The notes beneath the pieces are model-generated. The model was not told where the DNA came from. It made no database searches and worked only from the letters and a program-made list of their open reading frames with translations. A DNA stretch of 44,692 bases from Lachnospiraceae bacterium (GTDB lineage: Bacteria; Bacillota; Clostridia; Lachnospirales; Lachnospiraceae): positions 1 to 44,692 of the forward strand of contig JAFTQM010000078.1 of the NCBI GenBank assembly GCA_017462755.1. Direction: 5' to 3'. The position numbers and the translations under genes are program-made. Below are positions 645-44,624 of this stretch, one piece after another (within the stretch, counting starts at the first letter, position 1; the number at the start of each line of letters is the position of its first letter).

Positions 645-670
645 AAAAAAGGCGGGAAATTCTTCCCGCC
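645..670 (-). terminator. Intrinsic terminator of the ABC-exporter operon
   Basis: Inverted repeat GGCGGGAA / TTCCCGCC at 651-670, followed on the minus strand by a run of six U (645-650). It lies about 65 bases past the stop of the small membrane protein and so ends the operon that starts near 5850. Confidence 0.85.
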
Positions 671-735
671 TACGGTGGTCCAAAGAGCTCGCGCCCAAAC
701 CAAACTGCAATACTTAAGTAAATTAGCTAGTCGAT

Positions 736-17812: not shown

Positions 17813-17815
17813 CTC

Positions 17816-17893
17816 GTTACAACTGGCTGTCATTTTACAGACCCTATAGCTTTGCGTCACAAACTTTCATTTGTTTTGCCAAAATACCGTGCA
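17816..17893 (-). promoter_or_regulatory. Class I cyclic di-GMP riboswitch (GEMM-I)
   Basis: The minus-strand leader contains the GEMM-I core in order: GGCAAA, a short hairpin capped by GAAA (AAATGAAAGTTT), GTGACGCAAAGC, TATAGGGTCTG, then ATGACAGCC, with the GGC/GCC closing helix. These are the conserved c-di-GMP-I aptamer elements. An intrinsic terminator follows directly, so binding should switch transcription of the binding-protein/chemoreceptor operon on or off. The direction cannot be told by eye. Confidence 0.88.
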
Positions 17894-18028: not shown

Positions 18029-18075
18029 GCAGTTACATTGTATACGACCTCGGTCTTAACACAATGTACAATCAC

Positions 18076-18175
18076 ATACATCGGGGAGCTGGAATTGACC
18101 GGCTGAGAGGAAGCTTTCTGCTTCGACCCGCGAACCTGATTTGGGTAATGCCAACGTAGGGAATTCATATGATCT
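18076..18175 (+). promoter_or_regulatory. TPP riboswitch (THI element) of thiEDC
   Basis: The conserved thi-box is present: CGGGGAGC, GGCTGAGAGGAAGC, then GACCC, ACCTGATTTGGGTAATGCC and AACGTAGGGA, with complementary flanks that can form P1. It senses thiamine pyrophosphate. A terminator follows at 18183-18209, so excess TPP should stop transcription before thiE. Confidence 0.96.
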
Positions 18176-18182
18176 ATGAATG

Positions 18183-24793: not shown

Positions 24794-24830
24794 CCTCTGC
24801 CTCCTCTCCGAATGCTTATCCGCCTTCTTA

Positions 24831-24875
24831 TTTTGTATCATTTGTATTATTAATTGTAATACAAATGATACAAAA
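24831..24875. promoter_or_regulatory. Perfect 19-bp-arm palindrome, operator of the GntR/YtrA operon
   Basis: Left arm 24831-24849 (TTTTGTATCATTTGTATTA) is the exact reverse complement of right arm 24857-24875, with a 7-base centre. It covers the spacer, the -10 box and the start region of the minus-strand promoter. Each arm carries two TTGTAT-like half-sites, so two repressor dimers could bind. Confidence 0.82.
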
Positions 24876-24881
24876 TGTCAA
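24853..24881 (-). promoter_or_regulatory. Promoter of the GntR/YtrA operon
   Basis: Minus strand: TTGACA (24876-24881), 17 bases, TACAAT (24853-24858). The palindrome occupies everything from the -35 edge downstream, ideal for steric repression. Confidence 0.78.
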
Positions 24882-24907: not shown

Positions 24908-24936
24908 TTGACACCATACCTATGTTGTAGTAAGAT
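24908..24936 (+). promoter_or_regulatory. Promoter of the structured RNA / GH51 leader
   Basis: TTGACA (24908-24913), 17 bases, TAAGAT (24931-24936). Transcription would start near 24943, giving a leader of about 300 nt before the GH51 start. A weak TTAAG/CTTAA hairpin plus six T lies just after the start site (24946-24967). Confidence 0.6.
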
Positions 24937-24942
24937 GAAATT

Positions 24943-25245
24943 ATATTAAGAACTTGCTTAATTTTTTCACTATCCGTTTAACGAAACATTGTTTTATTTC
25001 ACTTTCAACTGAAAGTAAGAACTTTATAGGGTTTACGAAACTCACAAAATTTCATGCTAAAGCCACTGCAAATGAACAAAACATAAACAGGTACTTGAAT
25101 CCCGCCGGTACTTAGACGCTGTATTTTAGCGTCTTATGTACCGCTGCGAGGATGAAGTAGCAAGAGCGTACCTGTTAATGTTTTCGTTCATCTTGCTAGG
25201 CTTTTCAGCACTATTATTAAGTTTCGCAAACTCCTATAACAATTA
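24943..25245 (+). ncRNA. Large structured RNA (raiA-like candidate) upstream of GH51
   Basis: This gene-free stretch folds into nested long-range helices. Helix A pairs 25024-25042 with 25220-25239, about 17 pairs. Helix B pairs 25055-25064 with 25199-25210. Helix C pairs 25072-25094 with 25168-25191, 22 pairs with one bulge and one mismatch. Inside, ATCC-GC (25099-25105) pairs with GC-GGAT (25146-25153) and encloses the hairpin CGGTAC-TT-AGACGC...GCGTCT-TAT-GTACCG (25106-25143). The apical loops (GAAGTAGCAAGAGC, TTGAATCCCGCC) look sequence-constrained. Size, nested P-helices and Clostridia context resemble the orphan raiA RNA class, but I cannot confirm membership without a covariance search. 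No U-run follows, so it may be a leader of the GH51 gene or an independent RNA. No protein-coding ORF is credible here. Confidence 0.72.
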
Positions 25246-25260
25246 TGAATGGAGGCTATC

Positions 25261-28170
25261 ATGAAAAAACACACCACACGCTTTTTTGCCCTTTGCTCCG
25301 GCGTCCTCCTGCTCACTGCCGGCTGCGGCAAAGCAGGCAACACATCCGAAGCACCAAGCACCACTCCTGCACCGACAGAAGCGGTACTGACACCGGAAGC
25401 ACCGACTGCAGCTGCGACACAGGCGCCGACCACAGCACCAACCGTAGCCGCAACACAGGCGCCGACTGCCACACCAAAGCCTACCGCTACCCCGACACCA
25501 CTTCCGACTGCGGCACCGGTATACGGCAAGGCGGGCGAGGTCGCTGCTTACGATGTCAGTCAAAGCAATTACCAGCTGACGATTGACGCTTCCAATGCAG
25601 TACACGATATCAGCGATTTGCTCTACGGTATTTTTATTGAGGATATCAACTTTGCCGCAGACGGCGGTCTGTATGCAGAAATGGTGCAAAACCGTTCATT
25701 CGAATTTACCAAGCTGGCGGCCGGAGATGAATTACACGCCTGGGTAACCTTCGGGGGCGCTAAGGCTACGGTAATCAAGGACGATACTACCGGCTGCTTA
25801 AATCAGAACAATCCAAATTATCTGCTCTTAGAGGCAGGCGAGCAAGCCGATTCCGGCATTTACAACAAGGGCTTTCTGGACGGTATGTGCATTGAAGCCG
25901 GCAAAAATTACAAATTCTCCGTTTATGCCAGAGGTTTGGATGCCTTTACCGGTCCGGTTGAAGTCACTCTTCGCATCGGCGAAAACATTGTTGCAACCGC
26001 TGCCATCCCGACCGTTACTGCAGAATGGCAAAAATATGAGCTTACACTGACTCCGACCGAAAGTGCTCATACAAACGTGCGCCTGATGCTTTCCATTGCA
26101 GACGGCTCCTGTGCTTTGGATATGGTATCCCTGTTCCCGGAGGACACCTATCTCGGACGCAAAAACGGTCTGCGTAAGGATTTAGCGGAAAAGCTTGAGG
26201 CTTTGGAGCCTTCCTTCTTGCGTTTCCCGGGCGGCTGTGTGGTCGAAGGCGTTACTCTGGCAACCGCATACGACTGGAAGGACTCCATCGGTGTGGACGA
26301 GAACCGTGATCCGCTACTTTTTAACGGCACCTACGGTGATGTCGCAGCCCGCAAGCAGGGTCAGAACATCTGGACCAACGAAAACACCTCCAGTGACCAG
26401 TATCCTTCCTTTATGAGCTATGGTCTTGGATTTTATGAATATTTTCTGCTTGCTGAGGATATCGGCGCCATCGGAGTTCCGGTCATCAACTGCGGTCTGT
26501 GCTGTATGGCACAGGGCAACGGCTCCGGTCCTGCACTCGGTACCGCAGAGTTTAAACGCTATATCGACGATGCACTGGACTTAGTCGAGTTCTGCCGCGG
26601 AGATGAAACCACTGTCTGGGGTGCTGCACGAGTTGCACTGGGACACCCGGAACCATTTGAATTAAAATACATCGGTATCGGAAACGAGCAGCACGGCTCC
26701 AATTTCTACTCCCATTACGCAGCCTTTGTCGAAGCCTTCGCACAGGCACGCACCGAAAACCCGGAGCTTTACGAGGGTATCGAGCTGATGTTCAGTGCCG
26801 GCTTGGACGACGGTGACAGCGGCTACGCTACCTACATTGCCGCATACAAGGAAGCAGACCGCTGGCTGGCTGCCAACCCGGACTGCGATATTTTAGATTA
26901 CACCGGTGCAATTGACCACCATTACTACAATCCTCCGGAGTGGTTTTTCTCCCATGTGGATTATTATGACGAAAAGAACTACAGCCGCGATACCGCCACC
27001 ATGGTGGATACTCTGTACGGCGGTGCCATTCCGGTATTCGTCGGCGAATTTGCCGCCCAGTCCAATACCTTAAAGGCTGCACTTTCCGAAGCAGCTTATA
27101 TGACCGGATTGGAGCGCAACGGTGATATCGTCCGTATGGCAGCATATGCGCCACTGTTCGGCAATCTGACCGCAACCCACTGGTCACCGGATTTGATTTG
27201 GTTTAACAACCACACCTCCACCGCTTCCGTCAACTATTATGTACAGCAGATTTTTGCCCGCAATGCAGGCAGCGCCCTGCTGGCTTCCGAGCTGCTTGGT
27301 GCTGAGCTTCCGGCAGATACCCTGAATGGTAAGATTGGTGTCGGCACTTGGAATACGGCTGCCAAGTTTGATGATATCGTGGTTACCGACAATGCAACCG
27401 GCGAAATCTTAGCCTCCTGCAATTTTGATGATGGCGAAATGACCGGTTGGGAAAAGGTATCGGACGGTCGCTGGGGCGTACTGGACGGTCGTCTGGTACA
27501 GGCAAGCACTACCACCAACACCGGTACCTACGGCAATACCGGCTCTGCTCTCTACTTTGGTGATTCCTCGTGGACCAATTACACCTATACCGTAAAGGCC
27601 ACAAAAACCAACGGCTCCGAGGGCTTCCTGATTCCATTTGCCGTAAACGACAAAAACAACAACTATTTTTGGAACATCGGCGGCTGGAACAATACCGTTT
27701 CCTGTCTGCAGGTGGTAGAATCCGGCAACAAATCCGGTCAGATTGGTTCGACCGTCCGCGATTTTACCGCAAAAATAGGCCAGACCTACGAATTGAAAAT
27801 CGTAGTATCTGACCTCAATGTAAAATGTTATATTGATGATGTTCTCTATGTTGACTATACCCTTTCCGAGAACACCACTGCCGAAGCATATCAGGTAGTC
27901 AGCACCGACGAAACCGGTGATATCATTCTCAAGCTGGTCAACGTAACCGGCAGGGAAAAGACCGTTGCCATCCATGTAAGCGGCAAGGAAATCATCTCTG
28001 AGACCGCTGTACTCGAGGAGGTAAAGGGTACCAGCCTGTCCAACGACAATATCCTTGGTCAAAGTCCGGTCGTTACCCTAAAGACCTCCGAGCTTACCGG
28101 TGTATCCGGACAGTTCAATTATACGCTGCCAAAATACTCCGTAAGCGTGCTTCGATTAAAAACCAAATAA
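25261..28170 (+). CDS. GH51-type alpha-L-arabinofuranosidase lipoprotein with inserted beta-sandwich domain
   Basis: A secreted lipoprotein of 969 residues. The signal peptide ends in the lipobox LLLTAGC (Cys 22), followed by a Pro/Thr/Ala-rich spacer to about residue 90. The GH51 catalytic barrel has its acid/base Glu in GIGNEQHGSNFY (about 476) and its nucleophile Glu in PVFVGEFAAQS (about 595); FLRFPGGC and LYGIFIEDIN are also typical. An extra concanavalin A-like / family-16-type binding domain of about 170 residues (about 700-870: CNFDDGEMTGWEKVSDG to KCYIDDVLYVDY) is inserted before the final GH51 beta-sandwich. It should release arabinose from arabinoxylan or arabinan at the cell surface. 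The start at 25261 follows GGAGG. Its stop codon abuts that of the convergent acyltransferase. A structured RNA precedes it. Confidence 0.92.
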   Translation: MKKHTTRFFALCSGVLLLTAGCGKAGNTSEAPSTTPAPTEAVLTPEAPTAAATQAPTTAPTVAATQAPTATPKPTATPTPLPTAAPVYGKAGEVAAYDVSQSNYQLTIDASNAVHDISDLLYGIFIEDINFAADGGLYAEMVQNRSFEFTKLAAGDELHAWVTFGGAKATVIKDDTTGCLNQNNPNYLLLEAGEQADSGIYNKGFLDGMCIEAGKNYKFSVYARGLDAFTGPVEVTLRIGENIVATAAIPTVTAEWQKYELTLTPTESAHTNVRLMLSIADGSCALDMVSLFPEDTYLGRKNGLRKDLAEKLEALEPSFLRFPGGCVVEGVTLATAYDWKDSIGVDENRDPLLFNGTYGDVAARKQGQNIWTNENTSSDQYPSFMSYGLGFYEYFLLAEDIGAIGVPVINCGLCCMAQGNGSGPALGTAEFKRYIDDALDLVEFCRGDETTVWGAARVALGHPEPFELKYIGIGNEQHGSNFYSHYAAFVEAFAQARTENPELYEGIELMFSAGLDDGDSGYATYIAAYKEADRWLAANPDCDILDYTGAIDHHYYNPPEWFFSHVDYYDEKNYSRDTATMVDTLYGGAIPVFVGEFAAQSNTLKAALSEAAYMTGLERNGDIVRMAAYAPLFGNLTATHWSPDLIWFNNHTSTASVNYYVQQIFARNAGSALLASELLGAELPADTLNGKIGVGTWNTAAKFDDIVVTDNATGEILASCNFDDGEMTGWEKVSDGRWGVLDGRLVQASTTTNTGTYGNTGSALYFGDSSWTNYTYTVKATKTNGSEGFLIPFAVNDKNNNYFWNIGGWNNTVSCLQVVESGNKSGQIGSTVRDFTAKIGQTYELKIVVSDLNVKCYIDDVLYVDYTLSENTTAEAYQVVSTDETGDIILKLVNVTGREKTVAIHVSGKEIISETAVLEEVKGTSLSNDNILGQSPVVTLKTSELTGVSGQFNYTLPKYSVSVLRLKTK

Positions 28171-44498: not shown

Positions 44499-44514
44499 AT
44501 CTGCAACAATTGAA

Positions 44515-44605
44515 CAGTTGGGGAGCTTGTATGACAGGCTGAGAGGAAGGTATGACCTTCGACCCATAAACCTGATTTGGATAATGCCAACGTAGGGATG
44601 ACTGA
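44515..44605 (+). promoter_or_regulatory. Second TPP riboswitch (THI element)
   Basis: The full thi-box is present: TTGGGGAGC, GGCTGAGAGGAAGG, GACCC, ACCTGATTTGGATAATGCC and AACGTAGGGA, with CAGT/ACTG flanks for P1. A terminator follows at 44625-44662. The controlled gene lies beyond the right edge. Common targets are a thiamine or HMP transporter or thiazole-branch genes. Confidence 0.95.
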
Positions 44606-44624
44606 GGATACAAGGATTTTTTTT

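Follow-up and report, generated by a model that had tools for sequence, protein, structure and literature searches.

A dispersed 210-bp mobile repeat of Lachnospiraceae appears to be kept as a folded element, probably as RNA

Background

Upstream of a gene for a GH51-type alpha-L-arabinofuranosidase, the genome of a Lachnospiraceae bacterium carries a non-coding stretch that folds into several nested helices, raising the question whether this structure belongs to the neighboring gene, represents a known RNA class or is something else. A sequence-only reading of the window (here, the whole stretch of 44,692 nt that was analysed) had placed the structure at positions 24943–25245, located it in the leader of the GH51 gene and suggested either a raiA RNA or an undescribed RNA. 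Short repeats of bacteria, of which BOX/RUP, ERIC/RU and bcr1 are known interspersed examples, are mostly regarded as the remains of transposons. We report that the structure is one copy of such a dispersed repeat, and we consider why its copies appear to be kept.

Results

The nested helices were present where the sequence-only reading had located them, and the fold went far beyond shuffled sequences: for 24943–25245 the folding energy was −94.9 kcal/mol (z −8.2) and none of 100 shuffles was equally stable. This interval contains the element but is too wide, as terminal repeats shared with other copies set the ends at 25027 and 25236. The exact element folded with −83.1 kcal/mol (z −8.9), and its reverse complement was likewise stable (−92.0, z −10.1). 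Since both strands fold well, which is true of every long palindrome, folding energy cannot tell the strand. From outside inwards, the fold consists of the pairing terminal repeats, a spacer, the P1 arms, P2, the side hairpin P5, P3 and P4. The features of the window copy are as follows.

24908..24936, plus strand: promoter-like TTGACA-17-TAAGAT upstream of the element, consensus match only
25027..25236, plus strand taken as folding strand: whole element, 210 bp, ends from terminal repeats common to other copies
25027..25043, plus strand: left terminal inverted repeat TAGGGTTTACGAAACTC, letters checked, 1 nt short of the family form TAGGCGATTGCGAAACTC
25068..25084, plus strand: P1 left arm, partner 25178–25196, pairing kept, sequence variable
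25069–25182: match to covariance model R1, 124.2 bits
25088..25094, plus strand: P2 left, CAGGTAC, partner 25168–25174, last two bases belonging to the P2b helix in the family consensus
25099..25105, plus strand: P3 left, ATCCCGC, partner 25146–25153, one bulged A
25106..25143, plus strand: P4 hairpin, GGTACTTAG ... CTTATGTACC, 7-nt loop GUNNUUU at 25121–25127, most conserved part (invariant alignment columns)
25146..25153, plus strand: P3 right, GCGAGGAT, partner 25099–25105
25160..25167, plus strand: P5, 2-bp stem and tetraloop, AAGA in the window copy, GNRA in nearly all others
25168..25174, plus strand: P2 right, GTACCTG, partner 25088–25094
25178..25196, plus strand: P1 right arm, partner 25068–25084
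25219..25236, minus strand: right terminal inverted repeat, reading TAGGAGTTTGCGAAACTT on the minus strand, 25219–25235 matched with 3 mismatches
25251..25255, plus strand: GGAGG, likely ribosome-binding site of the GH51 gene, 14 bp past the element
25261..28170, plus strand: GH51-type alpha-L-arabinofuranosidase gene (Pfam ASD1_dom 1.2e-34, Alpha-L-AF_C 1.1e-26)

The promoter-like sequence that had been noticed upstream was confirmed as a match to the consensus; three such sites occur in the whole window versus 1.5 expected, and a scan of the same stretch gave no terminator-like site. That the interval lacks an ORF is right in so far as no gene-like ORF fills it, but a 113-aa minus-strand frame (25188–25529), taken from the mechanical ORF list, overlaps its end. 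The start of the GH51 gene is lipoprotein-like as judged by eye, and the window copy lies in its presumed 5′ UTR. Elsewhere in the window, a 47-bp near-perfect palindrome around ATTTGTATTATTAATTGTAATACAAAT (24830–24876) overlaps a minus-strand promoter-like site (11 of 12), both at the start of a GntR-family gene, and judging from this arrangement it is likely a self-regulation operator of that gene. Rfam further recognised a c-di-GMP-I riboswitch (17815–17890, minus strand), a DUF3800-XI RNA (655–702, minus strand) and two TPP riboswitches (18072–18179 and 44509–44617, both plus strand).

A BLAST search of the own genome yielded 36 matches, 34 of them with E < 0.01, which apart from the window itself were 72–95% identical. 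The covariance model R1, built from 50 copies, located 32 places in this genome with 63 to 128 bits, most of which were already among its building copies. The folded stretch is thus one of about thirty own-genome copies of a dispersed 210-bp repeat. A leader special to the GH51 gene was dismissed on these 32 places and their varied gene contexts, and the GH51 neighborhood is probably incidental because the repeat is dispersed and mobile. The left half of one further copy (L318:1547; own-genome position C59:37046) directly precedes another arabinofuranosidase-like gene, its product assigned by eye, and the repeat is found upstream of two arabinofuranosidase(-like) genes in this genome.

Carriers, counted with the own genome included, made up 2 of 6 in the window's genus, 65 of 150 in Lachnospiraceae (one genome per genus), 13 of 196 in the order, all 13 in Lachnospiraceae, and 5 of 398 in the phylum, where four carriers belong to the family and G702 to a different one; the family, order and phylum surveys applied stricter filters and counted at most 25, 19 and 9 copies per genome. 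A pattern scan of named genomes found at least 117 stretches. Among the 80 stretches listed, most were labelled as Lachnospiraceae, its genera or unspecified Clostridiales, with Coprococcus catus, Roseburia porci and Ruminococcus turbiniformis as named carriers and some uncultured bins labelled otherwise, e.g. Muribaculum and Gastranaerophilales. The repeat was not found in plasmids, nor its exact pattern in viral contigs. A phage collection gave one hit, to the unverified 'Bacteriophage sp.' record MT838426.1 (L373). A core fragment lies there next to genes that by eye resemble bacterial housekeeping genes, so the record probably represents a bacterial contig with a wrong label. Outside the family, only G702 was found to carry the repeat; its four matches are weaker and could stem from horizontal transfer, and a glmS ribozyme lies near its locus L372.

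Signs of mobility became visible in genome G123, where several closely similar copies are bounded by TAGGCGATTGCGAAACTC and its inverse and flanked by direct repeats. An end scan of the fetched loci gave 65 candidates between such 18-bp terminal inverted repeats, 60 of which contain the core. Among these 60 full-length elements, 53 measure 206–213 bp, the window copy included, and 24 have target duplications of 9–12 bp with at most 2 mismatches (0.06–0.63% per length in shuffled flanks), whereas 36 are without a duplication at these settings. The length near 210 bp, about twenty turns of B-DNA, is maintained in spite of sequences that are largely different from genus to genus. The window copy shares the terminal inverted repeats and the size; it is probably an old insertion, since its ends have slightly diverged and no duplication is visible (AAGAACTTTA versus TAACAATTAT). 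A 137-bp palindrome-rich insert is shared by two G123 elements (L303, L304), which carry it at one and the same position of the P4 stem and oriented alike with respect to the repeat; probably a single nested insertion was duplicated together with the element around it.

A second form, with the ends CTTGAGTTTCCGCATTTT, occurs in the own genome and in the congener G005. There, one copy has an exact 9-bp duplication and another an 11-bp duplication with one mismatch in low-complexity sequence; of the remaining elements listed for this form, only L014 comes near (8 bp, 1 mismatch).

No transposase with TAGGCGATTGCGAAACTC ends was found in the fetched loci or, in the end-match search, among the matches listed. 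DDE_Tnp_1 (PF01609), searched in six genomes, remained without a match in G123 and the own genome; in the four others it was not enclosed by a facing end pair. Facing ends 350–3500 bp apart were present at four loci, none of which proved to be a transposon: at L109, L151 and L153 the ends come from two adjacent element-size units, and at L159 from a solitary end plus a unit beyond it. Between the two units of L109 lies a gene of the DUF4317 family, which is not one of transposases. Mobilisation by Y1/RAYT transposases was dismissed, as Y1 genes are not associated with carriage (36 of 65 carriers versus 51 of 85 non-carriers, p 0.62, 150 genomes). Y1_Tnp had no match in the own genome, and no Y1 transposase was found in the carriers G071 and G007.

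The terminal repeats, target duplications and near-constant length, the similarity among the G123 copies and the missing orientation rule (below) would all suit a plain miniature transposon (MITE), the fold of which serves transposition only, with the transposase recognising palindromic or single-stranded DNA, and the copies of which become neutral after insertion. Against this stand short derivatives that retain terminal repeats without the core (L306 has a near-perfect duplication by eye), though these may be post-insertion deletions, and the fate of individual copies in two species of one genus. For this species pair, 15 copies were listed in G179 and 12 in G216, and 11 sites are retained by both. 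At these orthologous sites 37 of 961 core positions have changed, compared with 110/649 in the arms, 185/1233 in the next 60 nt per side (plus 228 gapped columns) and 612/7609 further out, where genes and intergenic sequence were taken together. The core differs from the next 60 nt with p 2e-19 and from the sequence further out with p 7e-7. A single site, L350/L364, contributes 20 of the 37 core changes (20/87; 7/24 at its unpaired positions), and without it the core shows 17/874.

Paired changes had also occurred in place. Seventeen core pairs have changed, 13 of which are still standard pairs (6 double and 7 single changes) while 4 were not counted as kept; 15 of 269 unpaired core positions differ. 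In P5 of L350/L364, AC-GAAA-GT has become GT-GAGA-AC, so that both pairs changed and the GNRA loop was kept. The two L348/L366 copies have the same core sequence, yet large parts of their outer arms differ; at L347/L361 the core has 6/87 changes and the outer arms are largely replaced. In both cases the arms still pair within each genome, and joint arm replacement with few G.U intermediates is what one would expect from template switching in palindromes. Because the core at orthologous sites is more conserved than flanks and surroundings, selection seems to maintain single copies in this species pair, which would not be just dead transposons, and we regard the plain MITE as unlikely.

The position of copies relative to genes was surveyed for 121 copies with a simple home-made ORF caller. 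They are mostly intergenic and share no orientation: 29 are antisense and 26 sense to both neighboring genes, 20 lie between divergent and 13 between convergent genes, 12 inside a long frame and 21 at a contig end. In G270, the five placed copies of those fetched are codirectional within runs of same-direction genes. In a longer form, 'cagacaagttaac', of the own genome (e.g. L014, L016, L017, L018, L021, L022), 11 of the 13 copies for which a right-hand gene was called are codirectional with that gene, unlike the other form.

Independent genes for a small RNA, spread by transposition and each acting in trans, would fit both this lack of an orientation rule and the conservation in place. Adjacent cores less than 1 kb apart, counted in 97 of the at least 117 pattern-scan loci, are moreover head-to-head in 11 of 12 pairs (one is same-direction), as with a shared divergent promoter region, although same-direction and tail-to-tail cases at L338 and L339 make this a rule and not a law. 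In a promoter scan of 184 copies, the upstream flanks were slightly more promoter-like than the downstream flanks (mean best score 6.7 versus 5.8 of 12, p 0.01). Matches of at least 10 of 12, however, were in equal excess on the opposite strand (minus strand 20 upstream and 7 downstream; plus strand 15 and 10), and the window is without a terminator-like site. We give stand-alone RNA genes a low chance.

Whether the fold is maintained across the family was addressed by two alignments. A1 comprises 57 copies from five genera, aligned with MAFFT, with the RNAalifold consensus of the same sequences as structure; A3 comprises 118 matches from 97 loci of named contigs, which were fitted to the model, hence it leans towards it. 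In A1, positions around GGTACTTAG...CTTATGTACC are invariant and the stems vary between copies. Changes on both sides affected 29 of 37 pairs in A1, including 5 of 5 in helix 1 (P1), and 30 of 32 in A3; 94.8% of cells were paired in A1 (78.3% when shuffled) and 90.2% in A3 (71.4%). None of 500 shuffles reached the same covariation, and slid versions of the structure scored 0.03–0.09 instead of 0.47–0.49. The domain supported in this way is a three-way junction, in which P5 consists of two pairs and a GNRA loop, P3 has a bulged A and P4 contains a U-rich internal loop and the 7-nt loop.

The same alignments bear on the strand. In A3 the P5 loop is GNRA in 109 of 118 copies and never GNYA, and its stem is GC/GC in 99, GU/AC in 11 and AC/GU in 5 copies. 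GNRA is legible on the plus strand only. G.U cells outnumber A.C cells in A3 by 215 to 35, but two columns supply 147 of the G.U; without these columns the ratio is 68 to 34, a mild support for the plus strand. As the P5 loop follows GNRA without GNYA and the wobbles of P2 are U.G on that strand, the plus strand as RNA is probably the selected form. Two observations speak against RNA: the minus strand folds as well, and the scarcity of G.U pairs in the variable stems of both alignments also suits a DNA hairpin or template-switch correction. A DNA-level site, i.e. a hairpin, either extruded or exposed in single-stranded DNA, to which a chromosome protein binds, would account for this scarcity, for the mixed orientation and for the arms that were replaced yet stayed complementary at L348/L366 and L347/L361. 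It does not account for the nearly constant GNRA loop, which has a purine at position 3 and is never GNYA although DNA is expected to tolerate GNNA loops, and we judge it improbable.

Finally, Rfam 15 returned nothing at gathering score on the folded stretch. Even with E up to 10 there were four hits only; three were to eukaryotic families and one to lysM-Prevotella, each on the minus strand and far under its gathering score. The raiA model RF03072 gave no match at this E; it gave none in G000, G123, G179 and G030 either, but the control genomes likewise yielded nothing. Fifteen other copy-bearing loci (E up to 0.1) yielded glmS at a separate place and one sub-threshold miRNA hit. The similarly sized nested stems notwithstanding, raiA and the remaining Rfam families were dismissed for want of a model match; judged by these models, we consider it next to impossible that the interval belongs to one of them. 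The second proposal of the sequence-only reading, an undescribed RNA, was strengthened, though as a mobile multicopy repeat family: the repeat is a structured-RNA candidate outside Rfam 15, and comparison among related Lachnospiraceae revealed strong covariation above the shuffled and slid controls.

Discussion

The interval upstream of the GH51 gene is very probably one copy of a dispersed, non-coding and originally mobile repeat of Lachnospiraceae. The best overall explanation, to which we assign a probability of roughly 0.6, is a mobile repeat that is kept as an RNA element. The copies appear to be selected as folded strands, and probably as RNA. Against this explanation count the AAGA loop and missing duplication of the window copy, the 20/87 core changes at L350/L364 and the presence of the repeat in only 2 of 6 congeners.

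Many copies are built like MITEs of about 210 bp: a transposase would recognise their 18-bp terminal inverted repeats, and target duplications of 9–12 bp flank them. Where transcribed, the hairpin might act in cis as an RNA module, with the apical domain bound by a protein and the arms protecting the transcript or being cut, similar to REP, ERIC and bcr1 repeats. In case of the window copy, the GH51 mRNA would carry the hairpin in its leader, between the promoter-like site and the ribosome-binding site. A cis-acting module is conceivable, yet we hold it as a tentative idea: the mixed orientation among the 121 copies strains a single cis role on the sense strand, and it keeps the stand-alone RNA and the DNA-site explanations alive.

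A more speculative version of the RNA element, which we find rather doubtful, would make the RNA domain and not the transposon the selected unit. A widespread class of Lachnospiraceae RNA would ride transposons with at least two kinds of ends (TAGGCGATTGCGAAACTC and CTTGAGTTTCCGCATTTT), each copy being kept in place while hairpin-templated synthesis rewrites its arms as a complementary pair and leaves the core unchanged.

An RNA-like domain is thus carried by a repeat that Rfam 15 lacks and that occurs in 65 of the 150 genera sampled from a major gut family; in one species pair the domain is conserved copy by copy, more strongly than its surroundings. Whether bacterial interspersed repeats are parasites or functional RNA components is an old question that becomes directly testable here. 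With the covariance model, as many as dozens of sites that lack a label could be annotated in a genome, and the sites of complementary arm turnover provide a natural record of palindrome renewal. In a literature search of open-licence papers we recognised no publication describing the repeat, which for PMC8040213 and PMC2267715 applies to the sections looked into. PMC8040213 is, from these sections, a resource of 3161 candidate RNAs, and the repeat family may be present among the candidates in its supplementary tables; the claim of novelty is therefore limited to Rfam 15 and the open-licence literature search.

The comparison with known systems places the repeat as follows. With the raiA motif RNA (ModT), described in the consulted portion of PMC11706538 as a structured non-coding RNA of Bacillota, it shares exactly this character, but it matches no Rfam model and is dispersed, multicopy and mobile. 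Like MITEs, BOX/RUP, ERIC/RU and bcr1 it is short, non-coding, intergenic, hairpin-forming and present in tens of copies, and like MITEs it has terminal repeats with target duplications. From BOX/RUP, ERIC/RU and bcr1 it may differ in having a covarying three-way junction with a GNRA hairpin that is kept between two species. REP/REPIN elements with RAYT are, in the parts of PMC3733652, PMC2817692 and PMC3116915 at hand, intergenic palindromes that are often close and oppositely oriented and possibly act as RNA. The present repeat resembles them in being an intergenic palindrome with inverted close pairs and possible RNA action (the latter for REP/REPIN in the same part of PMC3733652). It differs in size, 210 bp with terminal repeats and 9–12 bp duplications instead of the 20–40 bp given there, and in not being associated with Y1 transposase genes. 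Hence, it is a MITE by mobility, REP/REPIN-like by habit and a structured-RNA candidate outside Rfam 15 by fold, most likely a new family of a broadly known kind.
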